Part shown: positions 29,782 through 57,200 of the stretch, piece after piece | Numbering within the stretch: position 1 is the first letter of the stretch | How the letters are laid out: each line of letters starts with the position of its first letter | Assembly: GCF_005502465.1 (NCBI RefSeq) | Contig: NZ_SCOT01000009.1 | Span: 1 to 64,000, forward strand | Length of the DNA: 64,000 bases | Direction: 5' to 3' | DNA from: Sphingopyxis sp. L1A2A | Lineage (GTDB): Bacteria > Pseudomonadota > Alphaproteobacteria > Sphingomonadales > Sphingomonadaceae | The notes under the pieces: model-generated | What the model was told of the DNA's origin: nothing | The model's database searches: none | Seen by the model: only the letters and a program-made list of their open reading frames with translations | Position numbers and translations under genes: made by a program

Positions 29782-29806
29782 GCACGGCTTCCGCGACCCG
29801 TTCTTC

Positions 29807-30040: not shown

Positions 30041-30814
30041 GTGTCTGCACCGTTTCGTTTTCCGCGCTTTTTCGTCACCAGCCCGGCGCCTTGCCCGTAT
30101 CTGGCGGGCAAGACCGAGCGCAAGGTATTCACCGAGCTTAGCGGCAATACGGCGAACGAGCTGAACGACGCGCTCGGCCGCATCGGATTTCGGCGCAGCC
30201 AGTCGGTGGCCTATCGCCCCAGCTGCGCCGATTGTGCGGCTTGCGTGTCGGTGCGCGTCTGCGCGAGCGAATTTACCCCGAGCAGCTCCCAAAAGCGCAA
30301 CATGCGCCGCAATGGCGACCTGGTGGCCACCGCGTGCAAGCCGTGGGCGACCGAAGAACAATATGCGCTGCTGCGATCCTATCTGGGGTCGCGCCACCCC
30401 AATGGCGGCATGGCCGACATGGACGAGCAGGATTTCGCCGACATGGTCGAACAGACCCCGGTTGATTCCTACATGATCGAATATCGCGAACCGACGACGG
30501 ACGGCAGCAAGGGCCGCCTGATCGGCTGTTGCCTGACCGACCGGCAGGGCGACGGATTGTCGATGATCTACAGCTTCTTCGACGCCGCGCATCCGTTGCG
30601 CGAGGGGCTGGGCACCTATATCATCGCCGACCATGTCCAGCGCGCGGCGCGCGCCGGGCTGGCCTATGTCTATCTGGGTTACTGGATCGAAGGGTCGGCG
30701 CGCATGGCGTATAAGGCACGCTTCCGCCCGATCGAGCGGCTCGGCCCCGATGGCTGGTCGCGGTTCGAACCGGCCGCGTCGACCGGTCTGGCGGCGATCT
30801 TCGAACTCGCCTGA
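30041..30814 (+). CDS. bpt: Aspartate/glutamate leucyltransferase (Bpt)
   Basis: 257 residues from the GTG preceded by GGAGG. An earlier in-frame ATG would add 29 unconserved residues. ATE-family signatures: [38 protein letters not shown] with a Cys cluster, and [21 protein letters not shown]. The enzyme transfers Leu from tRNA to N-terminal Asp or Glu, feeding the ClpS/ClpAP N-degron pathway. The 259 bases upstream hold the pyk-distal hairpin and three GATTCAG motifs. Confidence 0.93.
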
Positions 30815-30846
30815 CCCGTTGCCGCCCGGCGCGGCGATGTACTGGT

Positions 30847-30862
30847 TGTGATTTTGGTCACA
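30847..30862. promoter_or_regulatory. Perfect CRP-type binding site
   Basis: TGTGA-TTTTGG-TCACA is an exact match to the CRP/cAMP receptor half-sites with 6-bp spacing. It is 33 bases after bpt and 241 bases before the secreted-protein pair that heads the 31-39 kb cluster. The rest of the 273-base gap shows no gene. Confidence 0.55.
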
Positions 30863-31087
30863 GTGGCTGCCTCACGGGCGGCTACGGTCGGTCGCATGGA
30901 CTGCAACCGGACGCCATATCGCACTGGCTTTTCACAACATTTTGCTGTGCCCGGCGCTATTGACCCGGGTCATGTGAACCGATGACCCGCGATCCGGAGG
31001 CCATTAGAGCTATGGCTGGCGAAGTTTCGCTCGCGGCTCGGCAACGGAAGATAAATGGATCGCGGTTGGGATGATTTCGGAGTGACC

Positions 31088-31828
31088 ATGAAATATTGTT
31101 TTCGACCTGCGCTGCTTGGCGTGGCGACCGTTTTGGCACTCCAGCTTACTGCGCCCGCGCAGGCGTGCACCGACTTGCCCAACATCTGTGCCCAGCAGCA
31201 GGCGATGGAGGATATGGCGGGGCCGCCGCCGAAATCGACCGGCGTCGATGGCGAGCCGGCGTCGCCCTATTTCGATCCCGTCGCTTCGCGCCTTTCGGAA
31301 GTCGGCAGCCTTGCCGAGCTCATGAGGACGAAAGGCAAGAAATACGAGGAGAGGATGAAAGACCCCAAATTTGCGGCCGCGGTCGAGCGGTTCGACAAGG
31401 GCGGGTGGGAGATGCTGCCCACACAAGCCGGCGCAAAGCCGGGGGAATATTGCGGCGCTTTTTACATGAAGGGCAATTGGGTCATTTTGATTTCCGGGCC
31501 GGGCGGCGATTACAAAGGTGCCATGCTGATCTTCTGGAAAGACGGCATTCCGACGCCGGGGACGATGAAGAAGGTCAGGGTCACATTGGATCAGGGCGAC
31601 GGGTCGCCGCAGACCGTCCAGGTGTTCAACCAGAAAATGCCCGGCTTTGCTCTGGGCTCCTTCGCTTTTGCGGTTCCGACGATCGGCGATCTGCTGACCG
31701 GGATGGAAGATGAGGCGGTCTTCACCATCGAACAGGAGGGCTATGGCAGCGCGAGGTTCGAATGGCATGACGGCCTGACCGCCCGCAAGGAACTGGAAAA
31801 ATGCATGAGTGCGGGCGCCAAGGGCTAG
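31088..31828 (+). CDS. Secreted protein of unknown function, CxDLxNIC type
   Basis: 246 residues from the ATG with GGAG five bases before. The signal peptide (about 1-25, ending APAQA) leaves a mature N-terminus CTDLPNIC. The next gene's mature N-terminus is CSDLANIC, so the two share a motif. The remainder (GGWEMLPTQAGAKPGEYCGA, NWVILISGPGGDYKGAMLIF) looks like a small soluble beta-rich domain. No catalytic motif seen. Since Cys follows the cleavage site but no lipobox Leu is at -3, lipidation is uncertain. Confidence 0.75.
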   Translation: MKYCFRPALLGVATVLALQLTAPAQACTDLPNICAQQQAMEDMAGPPPKSTGVDGEPASPYFDPVASRLSEVGSLAELMRTKGKKYEERMKDPKFAAAVERFDKGGWEMLPTQAGAKPGEYCGAFYMKGNWVILISGPGGDYKGAMLIFWKDGIPTPGTMKKVRVTLDQGDGSPQTVQVFNQKMPGFALGSFAFAVPTIGDLLTGMEDEAVFTIEQEGYGSARFEWHDGLTARKELEKCMSAGAKG

Positions 31829-31901
31829 TTGCATGACCAGTATATTTGTTCACCCCGACGCGGCTGATCTTTCGGCCGTCCCGATGAAGCGGAGGCTGGA
31901 T

Positions 31902-32924
31902 ATGGCTGTTTCCCATGTTCTGCACGACGGAATTGTTGCACGTTGGAATCGATTTGGTACTGCGCGGCGCGCTCTTGGCATCGGCCTTTTTGCTGCGCTT
32001 GGCAGCATGTCGAGCCCCGCGCTGGCCTGTTCCGATCTGGCCAATATTTGCCAGATGAACCAGCAGCATCACCAGAATATGGTCGATTACGGCCGACAGG
32101 CGGCGGAGTCCTATGGGGGGTGGAGCTCGGACCAATATGACGAGCCGGAATCCCCGCGCGCACCGCCGCCGCCACCATCGTTCACCGCCTTCATGGCCAT
32201 TGCCACGCATGTCGACACGTCGGCGGTCTGGATCACCCGCGCGCATTGGAAGCAAAAGCCGGCCGAGCAGCATGTGCTAAGCGCTTGCAACGCCGCCATG
32301 GGCGGAGGGTGTACGCTCGGAGGGACGGGAGACAGCTGGGCCACGATCGTTGTTGTCTATGATGCGATGGGCATTCCCTGGGTAAAGGGTGTCCCCCAAA
32401 TTAAAGGCGACCTTGCTGACCGCCAGCAAGCCAAGAATGTCGCCTTGCGGCTTTGCAACGCCAACTCCTTTGGCTGTTATCAGTCGTTCCATTTTCCCGG
32501 CACCTTCATCCACTATAGTGCCGACCCGGATGCCGACTATTCGAAAGATATCTTTCCGAACTACACTGTGAGACGTCACCACTGGGTCGTGGTCGCGCGG
32601 CCGGAAAACGCGCCGCCGGCGTTCAAGTCGAAAAGCTGGCTGATCAGCGGCAAGCAGGGGGCCGACGCGGTCCGCAAAGAGGTTCTCGACCGCTGCCGTG
32701 CCGATACGAAAATGCCGTGTGTCATCAGTTCGTTCGCAGCAAACGGCATGCTCGCCCACTATGTCAACGCCAAGGGCGAAAGCCGCTGGATCAGCGCCAG
32801 CGGCGACCGAATGCTGGAGCAGCGCCTCTATCGCGCCTGCCAGGGCGCAGAGAAGCCGTGCCGGGTGGTTGCGAAATATGATGCGGTGACGCCGCGCCTG
32901 CAGACCGTCGATGACGCCGGATGA
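31902..32924 (+). CDS. Secreted protein with four paired-Cys DUF4189-like repeats
   Basis: 340 residues from the ATG behind GGAGG; in-frame ATGs at 31833 and 31884 are alternatives. The signal peptide ends SSPALA, then CSDLANIC, matching the previous gene. The body shows four tandem units, each with a helix ending in Cys and a second Cys 6-7 residues on: ACNAAMGGGCTL, LCNANSFGCYQ, RCRADTKMPCVI and ACQGAEKPCRV. This resembles DUF4189-type repeats. A periplasmic or extracellular role is likely; function unknown. Confidence 0.72.
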   Translation: MAVSHVLHDGIVARWNRFGTARRALGIGLFAALGSMSSPALACSDLANICQMNQQHHQNMVDYGRQAAESYGGWSSDQYDEPESPRAPPPPPSFTAFMAIATHVDTSAVWITRAHWKQKPAEQHVLSACNAAMGGGCTLGGTGDSWATIVVVYDAMGIPWVKGVPQIKGDLADRQQAKNVALRLCNANSFGCYQSFHFPGTFIHYSADPDADYSKDIFPNYTVRRHHWVVVARPENAPPAFKSKSWLISGKQGADAVRKEVLDRCRADTKMPCVISSFAANGMLAHYVNAKGESRWISASGDRMLEQRLYRACQGAEKPCRVVAKYDAVTPRLQTVDDAG

Positions 32925-33034
32925 CGATCACCCGCTGATTGTGATGCGCCGTAATTGAAAACGGGCGCCAAGGCCCGCCGCACCAGTGGCCCTGCCGATG
33001 GACCCGCCGCGCAACGATTGTCCGCGGCTACCGG

Positions 33035-33064
33035 TTGACCTTTCCCCGCTTTCAAGGGCATAGC
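33035..33064 (+). promoter_or_regulatory. Candidate sigma70-type promoter for redox cluster
   Basis: TTGACC (33035-33040), an 18-base spacer, then CATAGC (33059-33064). The -35 matches 5 of 6 consensus bases and the -10 only 3. Transcription would start near 33071, about 66 bases before the leader ORF. The rest of 32925-33136 shows no gene. Confidence 0.38.
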
Positions 33065-33136
33065 TTTGCGTCCAGGACATTAGTCCGGGTCGCATCCGTT
33101 ATGAGTTCGCCGGGGGGCTGGCGAGAGGGGGAAAGG

Positions 33137-33214
33137 ATGCCCGTGCGCGCGTTCGTCAGCATCACGGCCAGCGACTGGGTGAGCGGTTGTCGCCGCGGGT
33201 TTGTGCGCCCATGA
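33137..33214 (+). CDS. 25-residue leader peptide coupled to the oxidoreductase gene
   Basis: The ATG follows a strong Shine-Dalgarno (GAGAGGGGG, 6 bases before the ATG). The 25 codons read MPVRAFVSITASDWVSGC and end in RRGFVRP. The stop overlaps the next gene's start as ATGA at 33211-33214. The oxidoreductase ATG has no good ribosome site of its own, so reading this short ORF probably delivers ribosomes to it. The peptide has no recognised domain. It may be a regulatory leader or only a coupling device. Confidence 0.5.
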   Translation: MPVRAFVSITASDWVSGCRRGFVRP

Positions 33215-35646
33215 GCGAGCCGGTCAAGGTCGCGATCATCGGGTCGGGGCCGGCGGGGCTGAGCGCCGCATCGCGCGCCGCGCAACTGGGCCTCAGCCAC
33301 ATATTGCTCGAAAAGACCGACCATCTGTCGGACACGATTTTCAAATATCAAAAGGGCAAGCGCGTCCTCGCGACGCCCGAGCGGCTCGACCTGCGCTCCG
33401 ACTGCCGATTTGCCGAGGGTGCGCGCGAATATATCCTTGGCAATTGGGACGAGGATGCCGCGAACAACAAGGTGCAGGTGGCCTATCATGCCGAGGTTGC
33501 CGAAGTGACCGGCGAAAAAGGCGCGTTCGCGATTCGGACCGCGAAGGGTGATATCTTTCACGCCGAAAATATCGTGCTGGCGATCGGCACCCAGGGCAAT
33601 CCGAACCGGATGCGCTGCGAAGGCGCTGACCTGCCGCACATCATCTATCAGGTCGACGATCCCGAGGATTTCAAGGACAAGCATATCACCGTCGTCGGAT
33701 CGGGCGACGCGGGGATCGAAAATGCGCTGGGTGTCGCCGAGGAAGCCCTGGAAAATACCGTCACCATCCTCAACCGATCGAAGGATTTTGCGCGCGCCAA
33801 GGCGAAGAATGTCGCTGATATGACCGAGGCGGGCGAGAATGGCTTTATGTCGATCCGCACCGAAACCCAGCCGAAGCTGGTTGAGGCCGGGTGGCTAACG
33901 CTGGAAACCCCGACCGGCGAGGAAAAGATCGAATGCGACGTGATCGTCGCGCGGCTGGGGTCGGTGGCGCCGCGCGGCTTCGTCGAATCAATGGGGATCG
34001 AGTTTACCGGACCCGACCGCGAAGCCTTTCCGAAGCTGTCGCCGACGTTCGAGACGACGGTGCCGGGCCTCTATGTCATCGGCGCGCTTGCGGGCTATCC
34101 GCTGATCAAGCATTGCATGAACCAGGGCTATGACGTCGTCGAGTTCATCAACGGCAACCAGGCGCTGACTCCCGCCGACGAAAAGGATCTGGCGGCGATC
34201 TTTGCGGGGTTGCCGCAGCAGAAATCGGTTAGCGAATGGCTGGACTATCTGCGCACCCGCATCCGCATCTTTGCCGACGTGTCGCCGCTGCAGATGCGCG
34301 AGTTCATGCTCGATTCGAAGGTCGCCTTTTACGGCAAGGGCGATGTCGTGTTCGAGAAGGGCGAGCCGGGGTCATCGCTGTTCGCGATCGCCGACGGCCA
34401 TGCGGTGGTCGAGGTCGGTCCCGATGTGACCGTGCCGATCGAGCAGGGATCGATCTTTGGCGAGGTCGGATTGATTTCGGGCCGCAAGCGCGGCGCGACG
34501 ATCCGGGCGGGTGAGGATGCGATCTTTGTCGAAGTGTCGCGCACCGCGGCGCTGAAGCTGATGGCGGCAGTGCCGGGCGCCAAGCGGGTGATCAACCGCA
34601 TCTCGCTCGAACGGCAATTGCTCCAGATTTTCAAGGGCGGGCTGACGGTCGAGGATCTGCAGCCGATCGTCGAGGATCCGGCGATCGAACGGTTTCCGGC
34701 GGGGAAAGTCGTGCTCGCCGAGGGCGATGCGGGCGACGATGTTTATGTGATCAGGTCGGGCTCGATGGTGGTCGAGAAGGACATCGGCGGCAAACCGATC
34801 TTCCTGCGCTACCTGCCCGCGGGCAGCTTTTTCGGCGAAATGGCGGTGCTGAGCGGCGCGCCGCGCAACGCCACCGTCAAGGCCGCGGTCGCCAGCGAAG
34901 TGATCCGGCTGAAGGGCGAGCAGTTCAAGGACATGCTCGCCAAACGGCCGCAGGTGCGCGCCGCGACCGAGGCGGCGGTCGCCGAACGCGCGGCGATGAA
35001 CGACTTCATCGAATCGCGCAAGGCGAGCTATTCGAGCGCGGTCGACCTGTATTCGGACACCGCGACCTTCATCATGAAGGAGGGGCTAGGCGAGGCGACC
35101 GACGCGCTGCTGATCGACGAGAATCTCTGCGTCGGCTGCGACAATTGCGAAAAGGCGTGCGCCGACAGCCACGAAGGGCTGTCGCGGCTCGACCGCGAGG
35201 CGGGCAAGACCTTTGCCCATCTGCATGTGCCGACGAGCTGCCGCCACTGCGAGCATCCGCATTGCATGGCCGATTGCCCACCCAACGTGATCCACCGCGG
35301 TCCCGACGGCGAGGTGTTCATGGAGCCGGGCTGCATCGGGTGCGGCAACTGCATGCGTAACTGCCCCTATGGCGTGATCCGCATGGAGGCGGCACCGCCC
35401 GAGAAGCCCAGCCTGCTGCGCTGGCTGCTCACCGGTTTTGGTCCCGGTCCAGGCGAGCCGTCGCCAAAATGGACCAAGAAGCAATTGGGTGACGAGAAGC
35501 CCAAGAAGATCGCGGTCAAATGCGACATGTGCAAAGGCATTTCGGGCGGCCCGGCATGCGTGCGGGCGTGCCCGACCGGCGCCGCGATCCGCGTGTCGCC
35601 CGAGGAGTTTCTGTCGATCGCGCGGCTCGAAGAGGACGCCGGTTGA
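33211..35646 (+). CDS. FAD/NAD(P) oxidoreductase - double cNMP-binding - ferredoxin fusion
   Basis: 811 residues, four parts. (1) About 1-330: thioredoxin-reductase-like flavoprotein, FAD GxGxxG at 11-16, NAD(P) GxGxxG at 163-168, no CxxC redox pair. (2) About 351-470: cNMP-binding domain, cassette GEVGLISGRKRGAT (E418, R427). (3) About 485-590: second cNMP domain, GEMAVLSGAPRNAT (E543, R552). (4) About 633-800: four-cluster ferredoxin of the DmsB/NrfC type; cysteines run from C640-C643-C646-C650 to C771-C774-C783-C787. It should pass electrons from NAD(P)H through FAD to Fe-S under cyclic-nucleotide control. No signal peptide, so cytoplasmic. It overlaps the membrane cytochrome gene (TGATG), a likely partner. 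Confidence 0.9.
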   Translation: MSEPVKVAIIGSGPAGLSAASRAAQLGLSHILLEKTDHLSDTIFKYQKGKRVLATPERLDLRSDCRFAEGAREYILGNWDEDAANNKVQVAYHAEVAEVTGEKGAFAIRTAKGDIFHAENIVLAIGTQGNPNRMRCEGADLPHIIYQVDDPEDFKDKHITVVGSGDAGIENALGVAEEALENTVTILNRSKDFARAKAKNVADMTEAGENGFMSIRTETQPKLVEAGWLTLETPTGEEKIECDVIVARLGSVAPRGFVESMGIEFTGPDREAFPKLSPTFETTVPGLYVIGALAGYPLIKHCMNQGYDVVEFINGNQALTPADEKDLAAIFAGLPQQKSVSEWLDYLRTRIRIFADVSPLQMREFMLDSKVAFYGKGDVVFEKGEPGSSLFAIADGHAVVEVGPDVTVPIEQGSIFGEVGLISGRKRGATIRAGEDAIFVEVSRTAALKLMAAVPGAKRVINRISLERQLLQIFKGGLTVEDLQPIVEDPAIERFPAGKVVLAEGDAGDDVYVIRSGSMVVEKDIGGKPIFLRYLPAGSFFGEMAVLSGAPRNATVKAAVASEVIRLKGEQFKDMLAKRPQVRAATEAAVAERAAMNDFIESRKASYSSAVDLYSDTATFIMKEGLGEATDALLIDENLCVGCDNCEKACADSHEGLSRLDREAGKTFAHLHVPTSCRHCEHPHCMADCPPNVIHRGPDGEVFMEPGCIGCGNCMRNCPYGVIRMEAAPPEKPSLLRWLLTGFGPGPGEPSPKWTKKQLGDEKPKKIAVKCDMCKGISGGPACVRACPTGAAIRVSPEEFLSIARLEEDAG

Positions 35647-36527
35647 TGGCGAGCCTGTTTAAACGGGGTCGCACAAAGGCCACCCAGACCGAGCGCGTCC
35701 GCGAGCGCAAGCATGAGGGGTTCCTGCGCTACGCAGGCTTTCGCTGGGCGAAGATTTCGGGCGGGCTGTGCCTGCTGATTATCGTCAGCTATGCCATGGT
35801 CGACGTGACGCCACGGCACAATGGCGGCAGCTGGTACGGCTATACGCTCGGCACGATCGGCGCCGCGCTGATCCTGTGGCTCACCGCGCTCGGCTATCGC
35901 AAGCGCAAGATGACGAGCACCGCCTGGTCGCTGAAGGCGTGGACGTCGGCGCATGTCTATCTGGGGCTCAGCCTGATCGTCATTGGCACCTGGCACACCG
36001 GGTTCCAGCTGGGCTGGAATGTCCATACGCTGGCGTGGGCGCTGATGCTGCTGGTCATCCTGTCGGGGCTGTACGGCGTGATCGTCTATGCGACGCTGCC
36101 CGCGGCGCTGTCGAACAACCGCGACGAAATGACGCAGATGCAGATGCTCGAGGCGATCCGCGCCTTTGACCGCCAGCTGCATAGCGCCGCGCAGCCGCTG
36201 ACCCCCGCCGATACCGCGCCGGTATTGGCGGCGCTCGATGAAGACCCGTTCGCGGGCGGCATCGTGGCGCGCCTGGGCGGACGCTATCCCAATTGCGCGA
36301 CCGCGGCGGCGCTGCGCACGCTGGCGGCGTCGCTCAGCAGCGATGCGGCGGCGCGCGAGAAGGTGGTCGGACTGCTGAAGCAGAAGGTCGCGGCACTGGC
36401 GCGACTGCGCGCGCATCTGCGGCTGCGCGCGCTGCTTGAAATCTGGCTTTATGTGCATGTGCCGCTGACCTTTGCGTTGATCGCGGCGCTGTCGGCGCAC
36501 ATCATCAGCGTGTTCTTTTACTGGTGA
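35646..36527 (+). CDS. Five-helix membrane cytochrome b-like protein
   Basis: 293 residues. The ATG overlaps the previous stop. About five membrane helices: GLCLLIIVSYAMVDV, TLGTIGAALILWLTALGY, AHVYLGLSLIVIGTWHTGF, ALMLLVILSGLYGVIVYATL and VPLTFALIAALSAHIISVFF. Histidines sit in or near helices (SAHVYL, TWHTGF, NVHTLAW, YVHVPL, SAHIIS), suitable for two b-type hemes. An insert between the fourth and fifth helix is helical and charged. It probably carries electrons from the ferredoxin module to the decaheme protein downstream. Confidence 0.83.
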   Translation: MASLFKRGRTKATQTERVRERKHEGFLRYAGFRWAKISGGLCLLIIVSYAMVDVTPRHNGGSWYGYTLGTIGAALILWLTALGYRKRKMTSTAWSLKAWTSAHVYLGLSLIVIGTWHTGFQLGWNVHTLAWALMLLVILSGLYGVIVYATLPAALSNNRDEMTQMQMLEAIRAFDRQLHSAAQPLTPADTAPVLAALDEDPFAGGIVARLGGRYPNCATAAALRTLAASLSSDAAAREKVVGLLKQKVAALARLRAHLRLRALLEIWLYVHVPLTFALIAALSAHIISVFFYW

Positions 36528-36537
36528 GGCGGGGACG

Positions 36538-38472
36538 ATGAGCTTCATCCTGCGCCGCATTTCGACGACCAAGACGGGCAAGCAGATCATCCGCGATCAG
36601 CCGCTGCCGGGCGACATGATCACGCTGGGCCGCGAGGGCAGCAACATCATCCACATCGCCGATCTGGCGGTGAACCCGCAGCATGCGACGATCGGCAGCA
36701 CCGATGGCCGCCACGTCCGCGTCACCGCGAGTGAGGGACTGGGTTTCGACCTGAACGGCCGCAGCGAGGCCGTCGCTGACATCGACAGCGCCGCGGGCGG
36801 CGAGCTGCGTTTCGGCGGCCACCGGCTGACGATCGCGCGCGAGGGGGAGAATATCATCCTGCTCGTCGAGCGGATCGACGAGCTGTCACAATCGTCGAAG
36901 GATGTCGACGAGGCGAAGGCGTTCTCGCTGCAAGGTGTCATGCTCGGCAAACGCGTGGGGGCCTGGGCGTTCGGACTGTTGATGCTGGCGGCGTTCCTGA
37001 TCGGGCCGATCTGGGCCTGGTATAGTTACAGGCAGGTCGACGAGCGCCCCGATGGCTTCCACGCCGACAGCAGCTGGTCTTCGGGACCGCTGTCGAGCGC
37101 GCACGCCAGCCTGAAGGACGATTGCCAGTCGTGCCACGTCGAGCCGTTCGTGGCGGTGACCGACAAGGCCTGCGTCAGCTGTCACACCGGCGAGCATGAG
37201 GCGATGAGCGCCGCGCACGCCGGGGCGCCGACCGCGATGCTGCTCGCCGCGCGCGCGCGCGACGGCGGGTTCGACAAATTGCTGGCGAATGTCGGCGAGG
37301 CGTTCAACCGGCCGCAGGGGCGCTGTGTCGATTGCCATACCGAGCATGAAGGCGCCGGGCCGATGCCCGCGACGCCGCAAAAATTCTGCGCCGATTGCCA
37401 CGACGGGATGCAGGGCAGGCTCAAGGCCGCGGGGCATCCGACGACGCTGGCCGATGCCGCCGACTTCGGCACCGGCCACCCCGAATTCCGCCCGCTGGTC
37501 CGCGCCGTACCGGGCGCGAAGCTGGCGCGTGCGGCGCCGGGCAAGGGGACCGTCGATTACAACGGGCTGAAATTCCCGCACGACATGCATTTGCAGGCGA
37601 CGGGCGGGGTCGCGCGGATGGCGGCGAGTTTTCGCGGGCGTTATGATTTCGGGCAAAAGCTGGCGTGCGAAAACTGCCACCGGGTCGAGGCCGACGGGGT
37701 GCGCGTCAAGCCGGTCGAGATGGAGCGCGATTGCGCGATGTGTCACAGCCTGGCGTTCGAGACCGTCGGCGGCACGACGCGGACGCTGCGCCACGGCGAA
37801 CCCGATCAGGTCGTCGCCGACCTTACCGCCTATTACCGCGCGACCCCGCCCGCGCGTCCGCTCCAGCTGGGCGGGATGCAGCGGCGGCGGCCCGGCGCCT
37901 ATGCCGAGGGGCAGGTGTACAACATCTATTTCCGCGAGGTCGCGGTGCGGCCGGGCCGCGCCGAGGATGCGGTGCGCGCGGTCTTTTCAAAAGGCGGCGC
38001 CTGTTACGACTGCCACACGATCTTTGCGCCGCAGGCGGGCAACAGCTGGCGGGTCGCGGCGGTCAGCCAGACGCCGCGCTACCTGCAAAAGGGCTGGTTC
38101 GACCATGACGCCCACCGCGAGACCGACTGCGCCGACTGCCACACCGCCGCGCCCGCGTCGAAAGCATCGAGCGACCTGCTCGTCCCCGGTCTGCGCCAAT
38201 GCCGCGATTGTCATGTCGGTGAGGGCGGGGCGCGGATCGTCAAGGTCGAAACCGCAACCGAATCGCCCTGCGCGATGTGCCACGAATATCATTCGGACGG
38301 CGGCCAGCCGTGGGTTCCGAACCGTCAGCGGAAGGGCAATGCCGCGGCAATCACAAATAAACCCCTGCGTGCTACCTATGGTGTGAGTGGGATCACAGGC
38401 ATCGGGACACGGGGTCTTTACAATGTGACGTGGCGCACATCTGCCTTGCACGGGGCAAGGCGGGGCGGATAG
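36538..38472 (+). CDS. FHA domain - TM - decaheme cytochrome c fusion
   Basis: 644 residues. A cytoplasmic FHA domain (about 25-105) keeps the phosphopeptide-site signatures GR (31-32), PQHATI (48-53) and DLNGRS. One membrane helix spans about 138-162. The periplasmic part holds ten CxxCH heme-c motifs: CQSCH, CVSCH, CVDCH, CADCH, CENCH, CAMCH, CYDCH, CADCH, CRDCH, CAMCH. Extra His residues (FPHDMH, FDHDAH) may be distal ligands. Topology (N-in) suits FHA sensing of a phosphorylated cytoplasmic partner while the hemes face the periplasm. It is the likely electron outlet of the preceding two genes. The 3' end contains two CRP-type sites. Confidence 0.92.
   Translation: MSFILRRISTTKTGKQIIRDQPLPGDMITLGREGSNIIHIADLAVNPQHATIGSTDGRHVRVTASEGLGFDLNGRSEAVADIDSAAGGELRFGGHRLTIAREGENIILLVERIDELSQSSKDVDEAKAFSLQGVMLGKRVGAWAFGLLMLAAFLIGPIWAWYSYRQVDERPDGFHADSSWSSGPLSSAHASLKDDCQSCHVEPFVAVTDKACVSCHTGEHEAMSAAHAGAPTAMLLAARARDGGFDKLLANVGEAFNRPQGRCVDCHTEHEGAGPMPATPQKFCADCHDGMQGRLKAAGHPTTLADAADFGTGHPEFRPLVRAVPGAKLARAAPGKGTVDYNGLKFPHDMHLQATGGVARMAASFRGRYDFGQKLACENCHRVEADGVRVKPVEMERDCAMCHSLAFETVGGTTRTLRHGEPDQVVADLTAYYRATPPARPLQLGGMQRRRPGAYAEGQVYNIYFREVAVRPGRAEDAVRAVFSKGGACYDCHTIFAPQAGNSWRVAAVSQTPRYLQKGWFDHDAHRETDCADCHTAAPASKASSDLLVPGLRQCRDCHVGEGGARIVKVETATESPCAMCHEYHSDGGQPWVPNRQRKGNAAAITNKPLRATYGVSGITGIGTRGLYNVTWRTSALHGARRGG
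38382..38397. promoter_or_regulatory. Perfect CRP-type binding site (distal of tandem pair)
   Basis: TGTGA-GTGGGA-TCACA matches both CRP half-sites exactly with 6-bp spacing. It lies in the last codons of the decaheme gene, 119 bases before the phosphodiesterase start. Confidence 0.55.
38424..38439. promoter_or_regulatory. Near-perfect CRP-type binding site (proximal of tandem pair)
   Basis: TGTGA-CGTGGC-GCACA has one mismatch to the consensus. It starts exactly 42 bases after the distal site, four helical turns, so two dimers would bind on the same DNA face. I found no convincing -10 element downstream. Confidence 0.45.
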
Positions 38473-38515
38473 GTTTAGAACCGGGGCCGATAACGGGCCG
38501 GAGCAGGGGACGGAT

Positions 38516-39364
38516 GTGCTGGTCGCGCAGATCACCGATATCCATTTGGGGTTCGATCCGGACAATCCGGCCGAGTATAACCGCAAGCGCCTCGACGAGG
38601 TGCTGGACCTGCTGATCGAGGGGCCTAACCGCCCTGACCTGTTGCTCGCCACCGGCGACATCACCGATCGCGGCGACGAGGACAGCTATCGCCGTCTGGC
38701 CAACGCCTTTTCGCGCTGCCCGTTCCCGGTGTGGCCCAGCGTCGGCAATCATGATTTGCGCGATAATTTCCACGCCCAGTTTCCGGGCTTCGACGATGGC
38801 AACGGCTTTGTCCAATACACGATCGAACTGCCCGAAATGCGGCTGGTGACGATCGACACACTGGAGGAAGGGCGCCACGGCGGGGCGTTTTGCGAGGCGC
38901 GGGCGGCGTGGCTCGACGCCGAACTGGCGAAGGACGCCGCCAAGCCGACCTATATCGTGATGCACCATCCGCCGGTCGAAAGCGGCATCGAATGGATGAA
39001 CACCCATCCCGACGAGCCGTGGGTCACGACCTTCACCGATGTGATGAGCCGTCACCCCCAAGTGCGCGGGTTGATCTGCGGCCACCTTCACCGCAGCGTC
39101 ACCGTGGCGTGGGAGGGGCGCACCGTCGCGATCTGTTCATCGACCGCGCCGCAAGTCTCGCTCGACCTGCGCCCGATCGATGCGGACCGCCCCGACGACC
39201 GGCCGATGATCGTCGCCGAAGACCCGGCCTATGCGCTCCACCGCTGGAACGGCCGCGAACTGGTGAGCTTTTACGATTTTGCCGGGGCGCATACGATGCT
39301 GGCGAAATATGACGCGCATCTGCAGCCGCTGGTGCGCGAGTTGAAGGCCGAGCGGCCGGGCTAA
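38516..39364 (+). CDS. CpdA-like metallophosphoesterase (cyclic-nucleotide phosphodiesterase)
   Basis: 282 residues with a GTG start behind AGGGGAC. Class III calcineurin-like fold with all metal motifs: QITDIHLG, LATGDITDRG, VGNHDLR, VMHHPP and GHLHRS. Class III members such as CpdA hydrolyse 3',5'-cAMP; others act on other phosphodiesters. Its place after the double cNMP-binding redox protein, with CRP-type sites in front, favours a cyclic-nucleotide substrate. It ends convergently, overlapping the dehydrogenase stop by four bases. Confidence 0.88.
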   Translation: MLVAQITDIHLGFDPDNPAEYNRKRLDEVLDLLIEGPNRPDLLLATGDITDRGDEDSYRRLANAFSRCPFPVWPSVGNHDLRDNFHAQFPGFDDGNGFVQYTIELPEMRLVTIDTLEEGRHGGAFCEARAAWLDAELAKDAAKPTYIVMHHPPVESGIEWMNTHPDEPWVTTFTDVMSRHPQVRGLICGHLHRSVTVAWEGRTVAICSSTAPQVSLDLRPIDADRPDDRPMIVAEDPAYALHRWNGRELVSFYDFAGAHTMLAKYDAHLQPLVRELKAERPG

Positions 39365-40305
39365 TACCCCAGCGTCAAATCGACCCGCGGCTCGACCGCC
39401 TCGCCCTGCTTCCAGCGCGCCAGATTTTCCAGGAACCGCTGCGCCGACCGCACGAACATCTTGTCCTGCGCGCGGCCCGACAGGTGCATGGTGATGTGGG
39501 CATTGTCGAGGCTCCACAGCGGGTCATCGGCGGGCAGCGGTTCGGGGGTGGTGACGTCGAGGAACGCCGCCGCGATCTGCTTTTCGTTTAGCGCCGCGAC
39601 CAGCGCGTCCTGATCGACGACGCTGCCGCGCGCGATATTGATCAGCGTCGCGGTCGGCTTCATCGCCGCGAGCTCAGCGGCGCCGATCATGCCATCGGTC
39701 TCGGCGGTTGCGGGGACCGCCAGGATCACCCAGTCGAAATCGCCAAGCCGCGCGCGCCACTGATCGGGGGTTAGCGTGTTCTCACCCGGCGAACGGCGCA
39801 CCACGGTAACGTCGACCGCGAACGCCTTCAGCCGTTCCTCGATCAGCTTGCCAATCGCGCCATAGCCGAGCAGCAGCGCCTTCGATCCGAACAGCTCGAC
39901 CTTGCCCGGCGAATCCATCAGCCATTCGCGGCGTTCCTGCGCGCGGACGACGTCGCGATAGCCCTTGGCGACGGTGAGCATCCCCATCACGACATATTCG
40001 GCGATGGTGATCGCGTTGATCCCGGCGCCGTTGGTGACGACGGTGCCGCGCTGCCCGAGCAGGTCGAGCGGCATGCCGTCGACCCCGGCGTAGATCGAGT
40101 TCAGCCATTTCAGCTTCGTCGCGGCGGTGATGACCGCGGCCATATCCTTCTTGTCGTACATGTCGAACCAGCCGATCTCGGCCGACGGCGCGAGTGCGAG
40201 CGCGTCGTCCTTCGACTGGAAAAAGCGCGGTTCGACCCAGTCGGGCAGGCGGTTTTCGACAAGCGGCCGGATGAGGCCCGACAGGACGGTAACGGTTTTG
40301 GTCAT
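39361..40305 (-). CDS. D-isomer-specific 2-hydroxyacid dehydrogenase
   Basis: 314 residues with AAGGA before the ATG. The NAD(P) motif is LLGYGAIGKLIEERL. Catalytic Arg in LINIARGSVVD, Glu in TTPEPLPADDPLW and His in AHITMHLSG are all present. The family reduces 2-keto acids such as glyoxylate, hydroxypyruvate or phenylpyruvate; the substrate is not predictable. It may share a transcript with the DUF559 gene, which ends one base before its start. Confidence 0.92.
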   Translation of the reverse strand: MTKTVTVLSGLIRPLVENRLPDWVEPRFFQSKDDALALAPSAEIGWFDMYDKKDMAAVITAATKLKWLNSIYAGVDGMPLDLLGQRGTVVTNGAGINAITIAEYVVMGMLTVAKGYRDVVRAQERREWLMDSPGKVELFGSKALLLGYGAIGKLIEERLKAFAVDVTVVRRSPGENTLTPDQWRARLGDFDWVILAVPATAETDGMIGAAELAAMKPTATLINIARGSVVDQDALVAALNEKQIAAAFLDVTTPEPLPADDPLWSLDNAHITMHLSGRAQDKMFVRSAQRFLENLARWKQGEAVEPRVDLTLGY

Positions 40306-40749
40306 TCAGATTCCTTCTTGATCCTCCCTATCGACTTGCGATGGGGAGGTGGCATCGCGAAGCGATGACGGAGGGGCTTTTCCGAACGCCGCCAAGCGGC
40401 TCTCGATGATTTCCACGATAGATTGGGCTACGGTTTCCACGCTGTCCAGCACATCTCTTGCCGGAATGCGAAGCGTGTCGACGCGATGTTCGCGCAGGAA
40501 GTGATCGCGACGTTCATCGCGAGTGGGGCGGTCGCCCATGTCGTGCGAGATACCGTCGATCTCGATCGCGAGATTGGCGCGCGCGCAGAAGAAATCGAGG
40601 ACATACGGGCCAGCTGGGTGTTGTTTGCGGAACTTATGCCCATCTGGCGACGTGCGCAGAATTCGCCAGAGCATCGCTTCGGGAAGGCTGAGGTCGCGGC
40701 GGAAGCGTTTTGCGCGGTGAACGGATTTCGCCGGTTTGTCTGGCCGCAT
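40306..40749 (-). CDS. DUF559 (Vsr-like endonuclease fold) protein
   Basis: 147 residues from MRPDKPAKSVHRAKRF; a longer frame would run through the flanking repeat. Core motifs LWRILR, HKFRKQHPAGPYVLDFFC and LAIEIDGISHD keep the Asp and Glu of the PD-(D/E)xK/Vsr-like nuclease core. Function is unproven. The last 27 or so residues are encoded by one arm of the inverted repeat, and the other arm sits just upstream of its start. The gene is thus bracketed by the repeat family. Confidence 0.85.
   Translation of the reverse strand: MRPDKPAKSVHRAKRFRRDLSLPEAMLWRILRTSPDGHKFRKQHPAGPYVLDFFCARANLAIEIDGISHDMGDRPTRDERRDHFLREHRVDTLRIPARDVLDSVETVAQSIVEIIESRLAAFGKAPPSSLRDATSPSQVDREDQEGI
40321..40377. repeat. 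Left arm of inverted repeat flanking the DUF559 gene
   Basis: 57 bases starting ATCCTCCCTATCG and ending GAGGGGC, containing the hairpin CCTCCCTATCG...CGATGGGGAGG and a second hairpin GGCATCGCGAAGCGATG. It is the inverted relative of 40757-40813 and of the arms at 4229-4363. It overlaps the 3' end of the DUF559 coding region. Confidence 0.8.
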
Positions 40750-40756
40750 CGTCGTT

Positions 40757-40813
40757 GCCCCTCCGTCAGCCCTGCGGGCTGCCACCTCCCCATCGCAAGT
40801 CGATGGGGAGGAT
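40757..40813. repeat. Right arm of inverted repeat flanking the DUF559 gene
   Basis: 57 bases starting GCCCCTCCGTCAGC and ending GATGGGGAGGAT. Aligned inverted to 40321-40377 it differs mainly in the inner hairpin. Its last 29 bases are identical to part of the hairpin at 62164-62194. It lies between the DUF559 start and the cysS stop. Confidence 0.8.
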
Positions 40814-40816
40814 ATT

Positions 40817-42419: not shown

Positions 42420-42435
42420 TTTGTTGCAAAGCCCG

Positions 42436-51381: not shown

Positions 51382-52140
51382 TTATCCCGCCTCGCCTTCC
51401 GACATCGCATCGACCAGGCGATTGAGCTGCGGTGTGCAGCCCTTGGCCATCAGCATATCGACCGATCCCTCGATGGTATCGGGGGCATTCCCCAGCGGCG
51501 TGAAGCGCACCTTGACCGGCGCGGGCAAGCCGCCGCCGGACAGGCGATAGTCGACGCCATATTGGACCGGCAATGTATCGGTCGGCCATTTACGGAAATT
51601 GGCGCCATCGACAATCGCGACGGTCGTTTTTTTGCCGGTGCTTTCGATTTCCAGCGCGGTGTCGCCTTCCATGTTGGGGCGCCACAGCATCAGCGTTGCC
51701 GGATCAGCGACGCAGAAGGTGCCGGTTTCGCGATAGTCGAGCAGCCACAAATTGGGCGCGCGGGCCTCGGCGGGCGCCGGGTCATTGGGACCGCGCGAAA
51801 ATCCGCCGCGTGACCGCATCGTCGGCCCCTTGGCGAGCATCCGCGTCACCGTGCCGCTCATCGACTGGCTGGCCTGAATCGTGCCGCTGGCGCCAAAGGT
51901 GCCGGGGCCGGACAGGGTGCGAGTCTTGCCCGCCTGCATCAGCACGACCTTGTCGCCCGCGACCAGGGTCAGCTTGTCGGCCGACTTCAGCTTGGCGCCG
52001 GTCGGATATTTGCTCGCCGACGGTCCGGTCGAGCGGACGACCATCGATTGCGCGGCGGCGGTGCCGGCGACGGCCACCGCCATGACGGCAGCGGCGGCGG
52101 CAAGGCTCAGGCGGCGCTTCGGCAGATCAGGAAAGAACAT
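51382..52140 (-). CDS. FecR-like periplasmic protein
   Basis: 252 residues with a signal peptide (RLSLAAAAAVMAVAVAGTAAA). The section SADKLTLVAGDKVVLMQAGKTRTLSGPGTF resembles a FecR-type beta domain. The second half carries two Cys (GTFCVADPATLMLW, MLMAKGCTPQLNRL) that may pair. No enzyme motif is visible. It overlaps the cyclase gene by 14 bases, so they are co-transcribed. It could be a periplasmic ligand or partner for the CHASE2 domain, which is speculative. Confidence 0.7.
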   Translation of the reverse strand: MFFPDLPKRRLSLAAAAAVMAVAVAGTAAAQSMVVRSTGPSASKYPTGAKLKSADKLTLVAGDKVVLMQAGKTRTLSGPGTFGASGTIQASQSMSGTVTRMLAKGPTMRSRGGFSRGPNDPAPAEARAPNLWLLDYRETGTFCVADPATLMLWRPNMEGDTALEIESTGKKTTVAIVDGANFRKWPTDTLPVQYGVDYRLSGGGLPAPVKVRFTPLGNAPDTIEGSVDMLMAKGCTPQLNRLVDAMSEGEAG

Positions 52141-54214
52141 AGCTTTCTCCTTTTTCGGTATTGTTCAGACGGTCTATCAGAAACATGATGGCTGGATCCT
52201 GACCGAATTCGCGCGCCAATGCTGTGGCGCCCGTCACATAGGTGCCGGTATCGCCCGCGGCGTGCGCGGCGACAAGCGCCGCGATGCGGGCGCGTCGTTC
52301 TGGGTCAAGGTCGGGGCGCGGCGTAAACACGTCGACCGGCTGGGCGCGACCACGCAATGTCACCCGCCCCATCGGCATCAGGTCGTCGCGACCCGATCGC
52401 GCCGCGGCCTCGGCCGAGATCAGTACGCCGGTTTTCAGGCTCTTGTTCGCCGCTTCAAGCCGCGAGGCGGTGTTCATGCTGTCGCCCAGCGCGGTATATT
52501 GGATGCGGCCTTCGCCGCCGAAATTGCCGACGATCGCGTCACCGACGTGCAGCCCGACGCGGGTCATGCCCAGTGGCGGAACGCCCTCGGCCAGGTCGAC
52601 GCGGAATTTCTCGCCCGCCTCATACATCGCCAGCGCCGCCGCGGCGGCGCGCGGGCCATCGTCGGGGCGGTGGAGCGGCGCGCCCCAAAAGGCCACGATC
52701 GCGTCGCCGACGAATTTGTCGATCGTCCCGCCATGGTCGAGCACGATGTCGGACAAGCGATCGAGATAGGCGTTGAGCAGGCGCGCGACGGTTTCCGGGG
52801 TCACCGCATGGCTGAGCTTGGTAAAGCCTTCGAGGTCGGTGAAGACGCAGAAGATGTTCCGCCGTTCGCCGTGCAGCGACAGCTGGTCGGGATCGCGCAT
52901 GATCTGTTCCGCGACGTCGGCGGGCAGATATTTGCCTAGCGCCGATTGGGCAAAGGCGCGCTGACGCGACCCGATGGTGCGCGCCGCGGTGCCGACCGCC
53001 GCATAGCCGAACAGCCAGCCGATCGCCCAGCCAAAGGTGGGCAGGGTGGTGGTGTCGACGCCGCGGCCTTGTAACCAAAAGGGGAAGGCGATGAAAAACG
53101 CCATCTGCCCGAGAAACGCGAGCGCCACCCAGCGGGCGCGCAGGTCGATCAGGCTGGTCAGCCCCCCCGCGAGCACGATCAGGACGGCGAGTATCCACAG
53201 CACGGGCGCCGACAGCGGGCGCGACCAGCCATTGTCGAGCTGTTGCGCCAGCATATGGGCGTGAACCTCCAGCCCGATCATCGTTTCATGCTGGCCGGTG
53301 ATCGGATCGGTAAAGCGGCTCAATGGTGTGTTGAACTGGTCGTTGTCGATGATATCGCCGCCGATCAGGACGTAGCGATCCTTCACCAGCTCCGAAAAGC
53401 CAGCGCGCATATCGGCGTCCATCGGCATGGCAAAGGTGTCGATCGGAATATTGGCAAAGACCGGTTCTTCCTGGCCGGCGGCGGCGCGCGCTGGCACGAG
53501 GAAGCGGATATTACCCTGGAAATCCGCATGCGCCGGATCGACCGGCGCCATGGCGTTGGACATCAGCGGCGGCAGGTTTTTCGGCCGGTCGGGCCAGTTG
53601 CGGATCACGCTGTCGTCGTCGGTGCGGAACAGCACGCTGGTGGGTTTCGTCTTGTCGGTCGCGACCGCGGCGATGAAGGCTTCGAGAAACTTCTGCTGTT
53701 CGTAAAAGATCGTGTTCGGATTGCTCGCCTGCTCGGCATAGGCGAGCCAGGTCGGCGTCGTCATCGCGCGCAGCTGGGTTTTCAGCGCCTCGTCGTCGGG
53801 GCGCGGCGAATCAAAGGCAATATCGATGCCGATCGCCTTCGCCCCCATCTGGTCGATATTGCCGAGCGCATTGGCGAGCAGGGTGCGGTCGAGCGGCGAG
53901 CGGATGCCGGTGTTGAACAAGGTTTCGTCATTATAAGTGATCAGGACGATGCGTTTGTCCTGTTCGACGTGCGGCGCCATCAGCGTCGCGCGTGCGTCGT
54001 ACAGCGCGCGTTCGGCGGCATCGATCAACGGCATCTGCCAGCTGAAGCGTGCGATCAGGACCGCGACGATCAGGAACAGGATTGTCGCCGCCATCCGCGA
54101 CGGGCCAAGCTGCATGACCAGTCGGCGCACCTGCTTGCGCAGCGGCACCGCGGGCCGCTGACCGTCCGGCGCGGACGTTTCGGCCGCGGGCGTACTGGTG
54201 TCAGGGTCGGTCAT
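52127..54214 (-). CDS. CHASE2-sensor adenylate/guanylate cyclase
   Basis: 695 residues from MTDPDTSTPA. One helix (41-59), an extracytoplasmic CHASE2 domain (about 65-340; DAAERALYDARATLMAP, GAKAIGIDIAFDSPRPDD), then three helices and a class III cyclase domain (about 475-640). Metal Asp residues are in FCVFTDLEGFT and KFVGDAIVAFWG; the transition-state Asn/Arg are in LGDSMNTASRLE; a Lys before FVGD favours ATP. It should make cAMP in response to a periplasmic signal. It starts 4 bases after the CHAT gene stop. Confidence 0.93.
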   Translation of the reverse strand: MTDPDTSTPAAETSAPDGQRPAVPLRKQVRRLVMQLGPSRMAATILFLIVAVLIARFSWQMPLIDAAERALYDARATLMAPHVEQDKRIVLITYNDETLFNTGIRSPLDRTLLANALGNIDQMGAKAIGIDIAFDSPRPDDEALKTQLRAMTTPTWLAYAEQASNPNTIFYEQQKFLEAFIAAVATDKTKPTSVLFRTDDDSVIRNWPDRPKNLPPLMSNAMAPVDPAHADFQGNIRFLVPARAAAGQEEPVFANIPIDTFAMPMDADMRAGFSELVKDRYVLIGGDIIDNDQFNTPLSRFTDPITGQHETMIGLEVHAHMLAQQLDNGWSRPLSAPVLWILAVLIVLAGGLTSLIDLRARWVALAFLGQMAFFIAFPFWLQGRGVDTTTLPTFGWAIGWLFGYAAVGTAARTIGSRQRAFAQSALGKYLPADVAEQIMRDPDQLSLHGERRNIFCVFTDLEGFTKLSHAVTPETVARLLNAYLDRLSDIVLDHGGTIDKFVGDAIVAFWGAPLHRPDDGPRAAAAALAMYEAGEKFRVDLAEGVPPLGMTRVGLHVGDAIVGNFGGEGRIQYTALGDSMNTASRLEAANKSLKTGVLISAEAAARSGRDDLMPMGRVTLRGRAQPVDVFTPRPDLDPERRARIAALVAAHAAGDTGTYVTGATALAREFGQDPAIMFLIDRLNNTEKGESYVLS

Positions 54215-54218
54215 CGGA

Positions 54219-57200
54219 TCAGCGGGCAGCGCGGCCGGCACCTTCCAGGGCGGGTGTGACCGGTGCGGGCGCCGCATCGGCGGTGGCCGCGCCGCTGTGC
54301 AGCAGGGCCTGACCGCCGTCGCCGATGATCGCGAACCCGGCCCAATAATAGGGATGCGACGTCTGCTGATCATCCATCAGCCGCATTTGCGTTCCCCACA
54401 TTGCATCGGCGACGCTGGTGCCCCGCCCGGCGGTGAAGAGGCCGCCGATCAGCCGCTTGGTCGCGTCGAAATCGTCGGGGGCGGGCCAATGGCTGGCGAT
54501 CACCGAGCGGCCGCCGGCGCCGATGAAGCTGCGCACCAGCCCGTCGAGCGCGTTGCCGCCGCCTGACAATCCCGCTTCGCGCGTCGCCGCGACCGACGCC
54601 GCGCCGGCCGTGTCGCACGCCGACAGGATGACGAGGTCGGCGTTGATCTTGAGGTCGAAGATTTCCTGAAAGGTCAAAAGCCCGTCCGAATCGCCGCCCC
54701 CGAACGAGGTGACCAGCGCCGGCCGCGCCGGGCAGGCGGGGCGCGGCGCGGTGACGAGCCCGTGGGTCGCAAAATGAATGATGCGATAGTCGTAGAGGTC
54801 GGTGCGGGTCTTGACCGCGCTGTCGGTAAAGGCGCCGCCGGTGAGCAGCGTCCCGGCGTCGTCGCCCATCGCATTGCGTGCCGTCACCAACTCGTCGGCG
54901 GAAATCGGCCGCGCCCATTGCGACACGTCCCACTGGCAGTCGCCGTCGATGGTGCTGGCTGCGCCGCCGCGGGTGCCGAGCGACGGCAAAGTCGTGCCAT
55001 TGATCGGCAGGTTCTGGCCCAGCCCGAAATATTGGTTCGCTGCTTTCGACGGCGCCGCCTGCCGTGCGTTGCGGAAGGCGAGGGTCGAGACCGCGGTGCT
55101 GGGCCGCGTCGTGCGCCCCAGCCAGGCGACCTGGCGCATGTCGAACGGATCGGCGTCGGGGTCGAGCAGCCGCTGTTCATAGGCCGCAAGGCCGGTGTCG
55201 GCGGTGACGAGCAGGTTGATCGGCAGGCGCAGCATCGCGCCGTCGGGTTCGAAAATCAGATGCGCGACCGACGGCAGCTTGGCCGCAACCGGGCCGAACA
55301 GCTGGCCATAGAGTTTGTAAGCGGTCGCGGCATCGAAGGGATAAGTGACGCGGCGGCCGTTTTCGACGATCGAGATCGTCGAGCGCAGCGTATCGACCGC
55401 GGTGTCGAGCGCCGCGGCGCCAATGTCCGATTTCCACAGCTGCGCGCCGCCCGGCTCGATCAGCATTGCATAGACGGCATCGCCGACAACGAGCATCTTC
55501 AGATAGGCTTCGTCGGGGCGCAGCACCTGTTGCAGTTCGGCAAGGTCGAGCTTGCCCGGCGCGACGACGCGATATTGCGGGAAGGCCGACAGCAGGGCGA
55601 TCGATTCGGCCTGCTGGAACGCCAGATTGTCGAGTTGCGTCTTCAGATCGGCGCGCAGTGCGCCCACTTCGGGCGACACCGGCAGCTGCGCGAGCCGCGC
55701 ATCCTCGATCCGCGCCCGTTCGATGTCGCGGTTCAGCGTCGTCGCCTGACGGAACAAGCGCGCGCCGTCGTCGCTGCCGCTCGACAATTCGCGCGCCAGC
55801 ACCGCCTGGGTGTCGGCGACGCCGGGGCGGACCTGCAGCTGGCTGGCGACAAAGAAATCGCTGACCGCGGCCGGGTCGGTCGCGGCGCGGCTGGCAAGCA
55901 GCCGGTAATAGGGCGCCATCATGTTCGCCATCCCGGTGGTCGAGCGCTGCGAATTCGCCAGCGCGGTGACCACCTCGCGATAGATGGTGAGCGCCTTGTC
56001 GTCCTGACCATGACGGGTCAGAAAGGCGGCGTAGCGCGCGCGCGCCGAGGCGAGCGCGTTGGTTTCGGGATATTCGATCGCGAGCGCGTTCATCGATTCC
56101 AGAAAGCGCGCGTCGGCGGCGGCGGTGTCGCCCAGCGCCTCTTCGGCCAGCGCGAGTTCGCCCAGCATCTGCGAGCGCAGCCGCACGATCGAGGTAACGC
56201 GGCCCTCGCGCACCGCGACCGCATCGGCGAGGCCTTTGAGCTGCGCCGCCCTGGCCGCGGCGCCGTTGCCGCGCAGCCGTTCGACGGTGCCGAGCAGGTG
56301 GACCGCCTGGGCATCGATGATCTGGCCGCGCTCGATCGGGGTCAGCCGTTCACGGTCCGACCCTTGCTGGACGGCGCGGGCATTGCTGCCGCTGTTCACC
56401 CCGGCGACGATCGTCGGGGTTAATGTGACGCTGGCCCCATCGACGGTGACCGCGCTGGTCAACGGCGGGATCGCCCGCTGCAATAGTTCGGCGGCGGCGT
56501 CGTAATCGCGCTGGTTCAGCGCATGGATGGCGCGGAAGTTGCGGCGCAGGCGCAGTTGGACGGGGTCGCTGGTCGGCACCGCCTCGGCCTCGGCAAACAG
56601 CCGTGCGGCCTCGCCGAACTCGCCCAGGTTCGAGCGTTGCAGCGCACGGTTCAGGGTGAATTCGGTCGGATCGATGTCGGCCGCCGCCTGGTCGCCCTGG
56701 GTGCGCCGCGACAGGGTTTCGAAAAATTCGGCGGCTTCGGCATAGTCGCCGCTGTGGTTGCGCCGGTATCCTTCGGCCAGCGCCTTGTCGACGTCGATGG
56801 CCCCGGCGAGCGTCCGGGCGAAACCGTCGTTGCCGCCGACCGATGTCGTGGCGACCTTGATCACCCCGGGGACGACCTTGCGCTCGCGGATCGAATCGAG
56901 CGCGATGTTCAATGCATCCCCATAAGCGGCGAAACCCTCGACGACATAAGCGGTGTCGCCATCGGTCTCGATCCGCGTCTGCCAGACGACGCTGCTGTCC
57001 TTGACCGTGCAAGTTCCATCGGCGGTGCAGGTGACGGTCCCGGCGCGGCCGCGCTCGACCCGGGCTTTCGCTGCGTCGGGGCCGGCGCGGAGCATGCGAA
57101 CATAGCCGACCGGTTGGCTGGTATCGCGGCACAGGATCACCCAGGCGCGGTCGAACATCCCGTCGATGACAGCGTCGCGCACCGTCGCCTGCACAGCGCA

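Follow-up and report, generated by a model that had tools for sequence, protein, structure and literature searches.

Does a single gene run in a sphingomonad carry electrons from NAD(P)H across the inner membrane, where would these electrons go, and does a cyclic nucleotide control their flow? These questions are raised by a 64,000-nucleotide stretch of Sphingopyxis sp. L1A2A (positions 1 to 64,000 of contig NZ_SCOT01000009.1, assembly GCF_005502465.1; hereafter the window), which belongs to a genome of 3.7 Mb in 71 contigs. An earlier note on this DNA had read three adjacent genes at 33211..38472 as a complete path on paper from NAD(P)H to the periplasm. The three genes, named P1, P2 and P3, are open frames with the domain content described there, and their domains and motifs agree with such a path. 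The reading that we favor, with moderate confidence and on the basis of sequence, is that they form the inner part of an NAD(P)H-driven, outward trans-envelope conduit related to the putative PCC4 clusters, with control by cyclic nucleotide left partly open.

Gene arrangement of the operon

P1 (33211..35646, 811 aa), P2 (35646..36527, 293 aa) and P3 (36538..38472, 644 aa) follow one another in this order on the plus strand. They are followed, 43 bp 3' of P3, by gene 4, which encodes a calcineurin-like phosphodiesterase (38516..39364, plus strand) with Rv0805 as its nearest solved relative. All four genes are open frames. The start/stop overlap said to join the first two genes is a single base (35646), common to the P1 stop and the P2 ATG. 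That three genes make up the whole system was ruled out by the fourth operon gene and by a likely outer half elsewhere in the genome. Beyond gene 4, features that the earlier note did not contain were an FHA-fold domain and a single membrane anchor in P3, and a CHASE2 cyclase-like gene 14 kb away.

Two secreted-looking ORFs, one with DUF4189, occupy window positions 31055-32924, and relatives of both were found at the same place only in L004 and L024, i.e., in two of the best 80 of at least 587 loci. In at least 43 of 58 loci (L026-L081), P1 is preceded by a divergently oriented gene whose product of about 320 aa has TPR-like sequence and by eye resembles CcmI/CycH.

Conservation of the gene set

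A P1-based genome scan confirmed at least 587 relatives, and the best 80 loci were kept. The 23 nearest loci, of which 19 are from Sphingopyxis, have P1 proteins with 86-97% identity to that of the window. Among these best 80 loci, P2 was present in 78, P2 together with P3 in 74, which answers the co-occurrence check proposed for the three genes in the affirmative. The full set of four was present in 69. Of the 11 loci without the full set, nine stop at an edge, of either the contig or the locus; in the remaining two, L063 and L069, the phosphodiesterase was not nearby. The one-base P1/P2 overlap was kept in 58 of the 77 scorable loci of this set.

Outside the family, a strong P2 match was found in 27 of the 289 genomes sampled from the class (at least 200 bits) and in 15 of the 398 sampled from the phylum (at least 170 bits); within the family, the threshold was 350 bits. 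P1 and P3 pieces adjoin P2 in 30 of 31 loci of L082-L113, the window's own left out, with L098 as the exception. In the genomes G314 and G423, P1 and P2 form a single frame of about 1120 aa, which supports one conduit. P1, P2 and P3 are a conserved operon.

P1 fuses a flavin domain, two cNMP domains and a ferredoxin

The N-terminal part of P1 (33226..34128) is a TrxR-type FAD/NAD(P) domain that matched Pyr_redox_3/2 of Pfam at 107/94 bits. Among solved structures, its fold is nearest to YpdA/Bdr, with TrxR-type ferredoxin-NADP reductases lower on the list. The fold and the glycine motifs are shared with these enzymes, which stand alone, whereas the P1 domain is fused to cNMP domains and a ferredoxin. 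The match to the YpdA bacillithiol disulfide reductase model TIGR04018 reached 127.4 bits, below its cut-off of 339.9.

The two cNMP-binding domains (34330..34566, with cassette residues Glu418 and Arg427, and 34687..34944, with Glu543 and Arg552) matched cNMP_binding PF00027 in two stretches at 113.4 bits (cut-off 27.5). The best profile match of P1 was an apicomplexan tandem cNMP protein (2e-38), followed by PKG and PKA regulatory subunits (about 1e-25) and then CRP. P1 shares the Glu/Arg cassette with PKA/PKG regulatory subunits and CRP; unlike them, it has no kinase or DNA-binding part, and its output would be electron flow.

The cassettes were followed through an alignment of 99 rows, comprising 80 close rows (window included; the best 80 of at least 587 relatives) and 19 distant rows. 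E418, R427 and R552 are present in 99/99 rows and E543 in 97/99, so the Glu and Arg that the earlier note had seen in both cassettes are kept almost throughout. Agreement of at least 97% was reached in 26 of 171 columns of the cNMP domains, and the domain means were 73% and 69%. Because the columns average only 69-73%, the cassette ligand residues stand out.

The C-terminal ferredoxin part (35128..35571) carries 16 cysteines at residues 640-787, fits four clusters, and matched Fer4_11 PF13247 at 39.7 bits (cut-off 26.2). All 16 cysteines are kept in 99/99 rows.

P1 was also considered as the only cNMP protein of this genome. This was ruled out, since five cNMP domains were found, two in P1 and three elsewhere, namely in a CRP-like factor, in a CNB-TrxR fusion and at C10:15079. 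The cNMP/thioredoxin-reductase fusion (559 aa; L161:4544-6223; G000 contig C33) is a second flavoprotein of this genome with a cNMP domain.

P2 resembles a diheme b cytochrome

Hydropathy indicated four clear membrane segments in P2, and the AlphaFold model (pLDDT 70.8) adds a helix at 96-117. The predicted total of five helices, together with invariant His pairs, is consistent with the five-helix b-type cytochrome proposed previously. His103, His117, His271 and His285 are invariant in 103/103 rows, and these pairs would be fitting for two b hemes, one at each membrane face. The motif WX3HX13H occurs at 99-117 and 267-285, and SGLYG at 140. Two WX3HX13H motifs were found in 102/103 rows and SGXXG in 99/103.

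The sole Pfam match of P2 was PF01292 (Cytochrome b561 / Ni-hydrogenase CYTB), at 20.8 bits and below the gathering cut-off of 30.1. Profile comparison gave no PDB relative of P2 at E <= 1, and the fold search with its AlphaFold model gave no match with E <= 0.001.

P3 is a decaheme cytochrome with an FHA-fold domain

P3 contains exactly 10 CXXCH motifs in its heme part (37123..38283, residues 196-582); ten are present in 97 of 98 aligned rows and nine in one. A single membrane anchor lies at 36952..37026 (residues 139-163), so that the count and the anchor agree with the periplasmic decaheme c cytochrome expected here, anchored in the inner membrane. The conserved cassettes, the 16 cysteines of P1, the four His of P2 and the ten hemes of P3 in distant homologues support the conduit.

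The N-terminal domain of P3 (36544..36873), which would lie in the cytoplasm, matched GarA/OdhI FHA by profile at 3e-4. Its best Foldseek match was an FHA domain (E 4.1e-4), and nearly all 50 listed matches were FHA proteins; the AlphaFold model of P3 is poor beyond residue 110, with a mean pLDDT of 56.9. FHA-type matches in Pfam were sub-threshold. Canonical FHA domains bind phosphothreonine through Arg, Ser and His residues. In P3, Arg32 was found in 74/74 close and 21/24 distant rows, and His49 in 74/74 close and 13/24 distant rows. The canonical Ser was present in 3/74 close and 2/24 distant rows and was otherwise mostly replaced. Phosphopeptide input through this domain is unlikely.

A putative outer half co-occurs with P2

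In many relatives, a putative outer half lies beside the operon. It consists of a tetraheme cytochrome gene, a barrel-like protein (c3), an HbpS-like protein (c4) and S5, a decaheme cytochrome of ~1340 aa in which ten CXXCH motifs are joined by an LVIVD repeat that scored 43 bits (cut-off 20.2). We infer that S5 is located outside the cell. The neighborhood counts are lower bounds, because the gene picker took antisense frames (for c3 in L166, L174 and L176, and for S5 in L130). c3 follows in at least 12 of 19 distant long-P1 loci, mostly with c4 and c5 (decaheme); in L132 and L138, 4-heme, 5-heme and c6 genes stand in place of the c3 set. The ~1340-aa decaheme gene was found 3' of the operon in at least 31 of 58 Sphingomonadales loci, many of them cut short, and on the opposite strand in 30 of these 31. 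The tetraheme, c4, c3 and S5 genes form one run in at least 7 of 12 fetched regions (L167-L171, L173 and L175), and L172 and L177 are alike. The window's genome has S5, c3 and a cut c4 on contig C34, and a tetraheme gene on contig C17.

The barrel assignment of c3 comes from one weak NCBIfam match (18.6 bits against a cut-off of 250) and the look of the sequence; the Pfam scan of c3 gave no match. c4, with PF03928 above its cut-off, sits between the tetraheme and barrel-like genes (L171:14719-16704 and L129:4497-6803), and one c4 member has a lipobox-like N-terminus.

Co-occurrence was counted with strong matches (at least 290 bits for S5) in three samples that overlap in some genomes. The family sample of 249 genomes had both P2 and S5 in 93, P2 only in 0, S5 only in 1 (G694, 67% complete) and neither in 155. 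The class sample (289 genomes) gave 20, 7, 0 and 262, respectively, and the phylum sample (398 genomes) 11, 4, 0 and 383. Weak matches were left out of these counts (8 P2 and 5 S5 in the class, 7 P2 and 12 S5 in the phylum, and one P2, in G736, in the family). Fisher values, with kinship ignored, were 6e-69 for the family, 2.6e-25 for the class and 1.6e-18 for the phylum. S5 was also found in 19 of 20 genomes reached through sphingomonad loci.

The 93 family genomes with both genes had them within 15 kb in 44 cases, on one contig but 17.7 kb to 2.2 Mb apart in 20 and on different contigs in 29, which may include assembly breaks. Since P2 and S5 co-occur even without linkage, one pathway is argued for. 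A candidate route for leaving the periplasm is now available, as a putative outer-membrane half co-occurs almost perfectly with P2, and coupling of the inner module to this outer half is quite likely. Several results count against the conduit reading: the P2-bearing genomes that lack a strong S5 match (7 in the class and 4 in the phylum sample), the weak barrel assignment of c3 and the empty fold search of P2.

S5 also bears on what the electrons are for. Its best NCBIfam match was ExtM of a selenite/tellurite reduction operon (67.7-69.6 bits), as would be expected if the system served detoxification or stress reduction (e.g., of selenite, tellurite or oxidants outside the cell) and not respiration or general electron export. 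However, this match is local and far under the cut-off of 800 bits, and we consider such a role quite improbable.

Relationship to PCC4 and other known conduits

PCC4 was proposed from genome comparison and is putative (He et al. 2017; PMC5566968). In the main text of that paper, it comprises a porin, 4-, 5- and 10-heme cytochromes, an inner-membrane protein and other redox genes. The inner-membrane protein has five helices, with two WX3HX13H motifs on helices 3 and 5 and SGXXG on helix 4, and subgroup II has a pfam13247 Fe-S gene 5' of it. The cluster contains a porin gene and lacks an extracellular multiheme cytochrome (PMC5566968). Our comparison relied on this published description, so the loci discussed below are loci that fit it, and not PCC4 sequences.

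P2 carries the same two WX3HX13H motifs and SGXXG on five helices, a PF13247 Fe-S protein lies upstream of it (in P1, 39.7 bits), the decaheme P3 adjoins it and a 4-heme gene is present elsewhere in the genome. As P2 bears the PCC4 signature given in the main text, the inner module belongs with PCC4. In contrast to that description, the window system has a fused flavin domain, two cNMP domains, an FHA-fold domain, a phosphodiesterase and the S5 outer half. The 5-heme gene expected from the PCC4 description was not among the ORFs listed at 29000-43000 of the window. The counterpart of the described porin would be the barrel-like gene of predicted fold, which lies on another contig with the presumably extracellular S5. 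In clustering, c3 stayed separate from the c6 genes of PCC4-like loci.

Ten loci fit the PCC4 description from the main text wholly or partly (L145-L147, L151-L156 and L160); nine of them have a shorter P1 relative and L160 does not. Seven short relatives were scanned (L145, L146, L147, L151, L152, L153 and L156), and each had 2-3 cNMP stretches at 74-97 bits; no flavin family was found in these seven. A separate reductase-type gene, c7, is present in at least 9 of 10 loci whose P1 relative lacks the flavin domain, and one scanned c7 member has NAD-binding, FAD-binding and 2Fe-2S domains. This replacement supports NAD(P)H as the donor.

The published PCC4 scheme has electrons enter from a donor outside the cell and end in the quinone pool, and iron-oxidizer habitats were mentioned (PMC5566968, main text). 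This speaks for a reversed flow, in which electrons from an extracellular donor such as Fe(II) or Mn(II) would enter by way of the conduit and reach quinone or NAD(P)+ via P2. However, in P1 an NAD(P)H-type flavoprotein is joined to a ferredoxin, and a reductase-type gene for NAD(P)H likewise occurs in the alternative branch. In addition, NAD(P)+ reduction by Fe(II) requires an input of outside energy. Reversed flow is thus improbable, and outward flow is likely.

Other conduits were more distant. The putative PCC3 is alike in its inner-membrane protein, whose helices and motifs are arranged in this way, and in having an extracellular multiheme cytochrome, but the main text gives heme medians of 34 and 21 for its cytochromes (PMC5566968) versus 10 in the window system. 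MtrCAB, MtoAB and PioAB resemble the window system in overall layout, with multiheme cytochromes and a barrel that spans the outer membrane; unlike it, they are quinol-linked or inward (in part after PMC6344600). No Pfam or NCBIfam match to Mtr models above cut-off was obtained among the window-system proteins scanned.

The earlier note had called the system apparently undescribed. This holds in part: the inner module fits the putative PCC4, and a word search of the PCC4 main text gave no 'cyclic nucleotide', 'cNMP', 'FHA' or 'forkhead', although domain drawings in its supplement may show such domains (PMC5566968). No paper describing the gene set with cNMP or FHA domains was found among openly licensed (CC0, CC BY, CC BY-SA) PMC papers. 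To the PCC4 description, the present analysis adds the layer of cNMP and FHA domains, the flavoprotein fusion, the phosphodiesterase and an outer half with S5.

Possible control by cyclic nucleotide

The phosphodiesterase of gene 4 strengthens the cyclic-nucleotide link by its place in the operon. Its NCBIfam scores were 138.7 bits for SpdA, a 2',3'-cNMP enzyme (cut-off 400), and 82.7 for CpdA (cut-off 225); that it is nearer to SpdA than to CpdA counts against the favored reading. The candidate source of the nucleotide is a CHASE2 class III cyclase on the minus strand (52127..54373). It is the genome's only PF00211 match, and a search confined to class III cyclases gave no other. It has adenylate-cyclase relatives and motifs, which we take to be of adenylate-cyclase type. 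The PKA/PKG/CRP-type domains, the operon phosphodiesterase and the one cyclase support control by cyclic nucleotide.

A cyclase dedicated to the operon was rejected. A cyclase lies within the locus in 7 of 80 relatives (the best 80 of at least 587), and the window copy stands among TPS/ShlB-type and CHAT genes. This setting, the low count and the other cNMP proteins of the genome count against the favored reading. At 42436-57515 of the window, a 2383-aa repetitive exoprotein-like ORF (no Pfam match), an ShlB/POTRA transporter, a 252-aa ORF, the CHASE2 cyclase and a CHAT-domain protein share the minus-strand direction, and the cyclase may belong with this exoprotein/ShlB/CHAT set. In Glacieibacterium frigidum (L175:5299-8513), a CHASE2 cyclase and the phosphodiesterase are side by side next to S5 and away from P1.

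The cNMP and FHA-fold domains could instead have a structural role in docking and bind neither ligand nor phosphopeptide, which would make the conduit constitutive. The FHA Ser is not kept, and by a simple motif, the ten short P1 relatives have one canonical cNMP cassette in seven and none in L145, L146 and L148, as this would predict. However, the cassettes of long P1 keep Glu/Arg in 97-99 of 99 rows against a column mean of 69-73%, and the phosphodiesterase sits in the same operon; purely structural docking is rather unlikely. Control by cyclic nucleotide itself is evenly poised, and direct gating of electron flow is plausible from the sequence. As cNMP domains on the Fe-S subunit also occur in the PCC4-like branch, such control would be a general trait of this kind of system.

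Proposed mechanism and significance

Judging from the folds, the P1 flavin domain would oxidize NAD(P)H and pass electrons to the fused four-cluster ferredoxin. From the invariant His pairs, P2 would move them over the inner membrane through two b hemes, with His103/271 towards the cytoplasmic face and His117/285 towards the periplasmic face, and they would then reach the ten periplasmic hemes of P3. Co-occurrence and neighborhood suggest that P3 hands them to the outer half (tetraheme cytochrome, barrel-like protein and S5), encoded on other contigs. A cyclic nucleotide, probably cAMP, would bind the two cNMP domains, which lie between the flavin and ferredoxin parts, and alter either flavin-ferredoxin coupling or the docking of P1 on P2. 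The phosphodiesterase of the operon would reset the signal, and the P3 FHA-fold domain could be a second docking or control point in the cytoplasm.

Confidence in the sequence-based path from NAD(P)H to P3 is high. Such grades for path, coupling, direction, control and phosphopeptide input are estimates and depend on one another. The full scheme, second-messenger-controlled extracellular electron transfer in which cAMP or another cNMP, produced by a membrane cyclase and removed by the operon phosphodiesterase, acts allosterically through the two PKA-like domains to open or close an NAD(P)H-to-surface wire with an FHA-type input on P3, is tentative and somewhat short of even.

The best-known trans-envelope conduits take electrons from quinol and are not known to have a nucleotide switch of their own. 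The window conduit seems to take NAD(P)H directly and has sensor domains on its entry subunit. If the gating is true, cAMP could switch electron export on and off without new transcription. The family, in which 93 of 249 genomes have P2 and S5, is not usually regarded as electroactive. The putative PCC4 clusters thereby gain a likely electron donor, a regulator and a testable direction.
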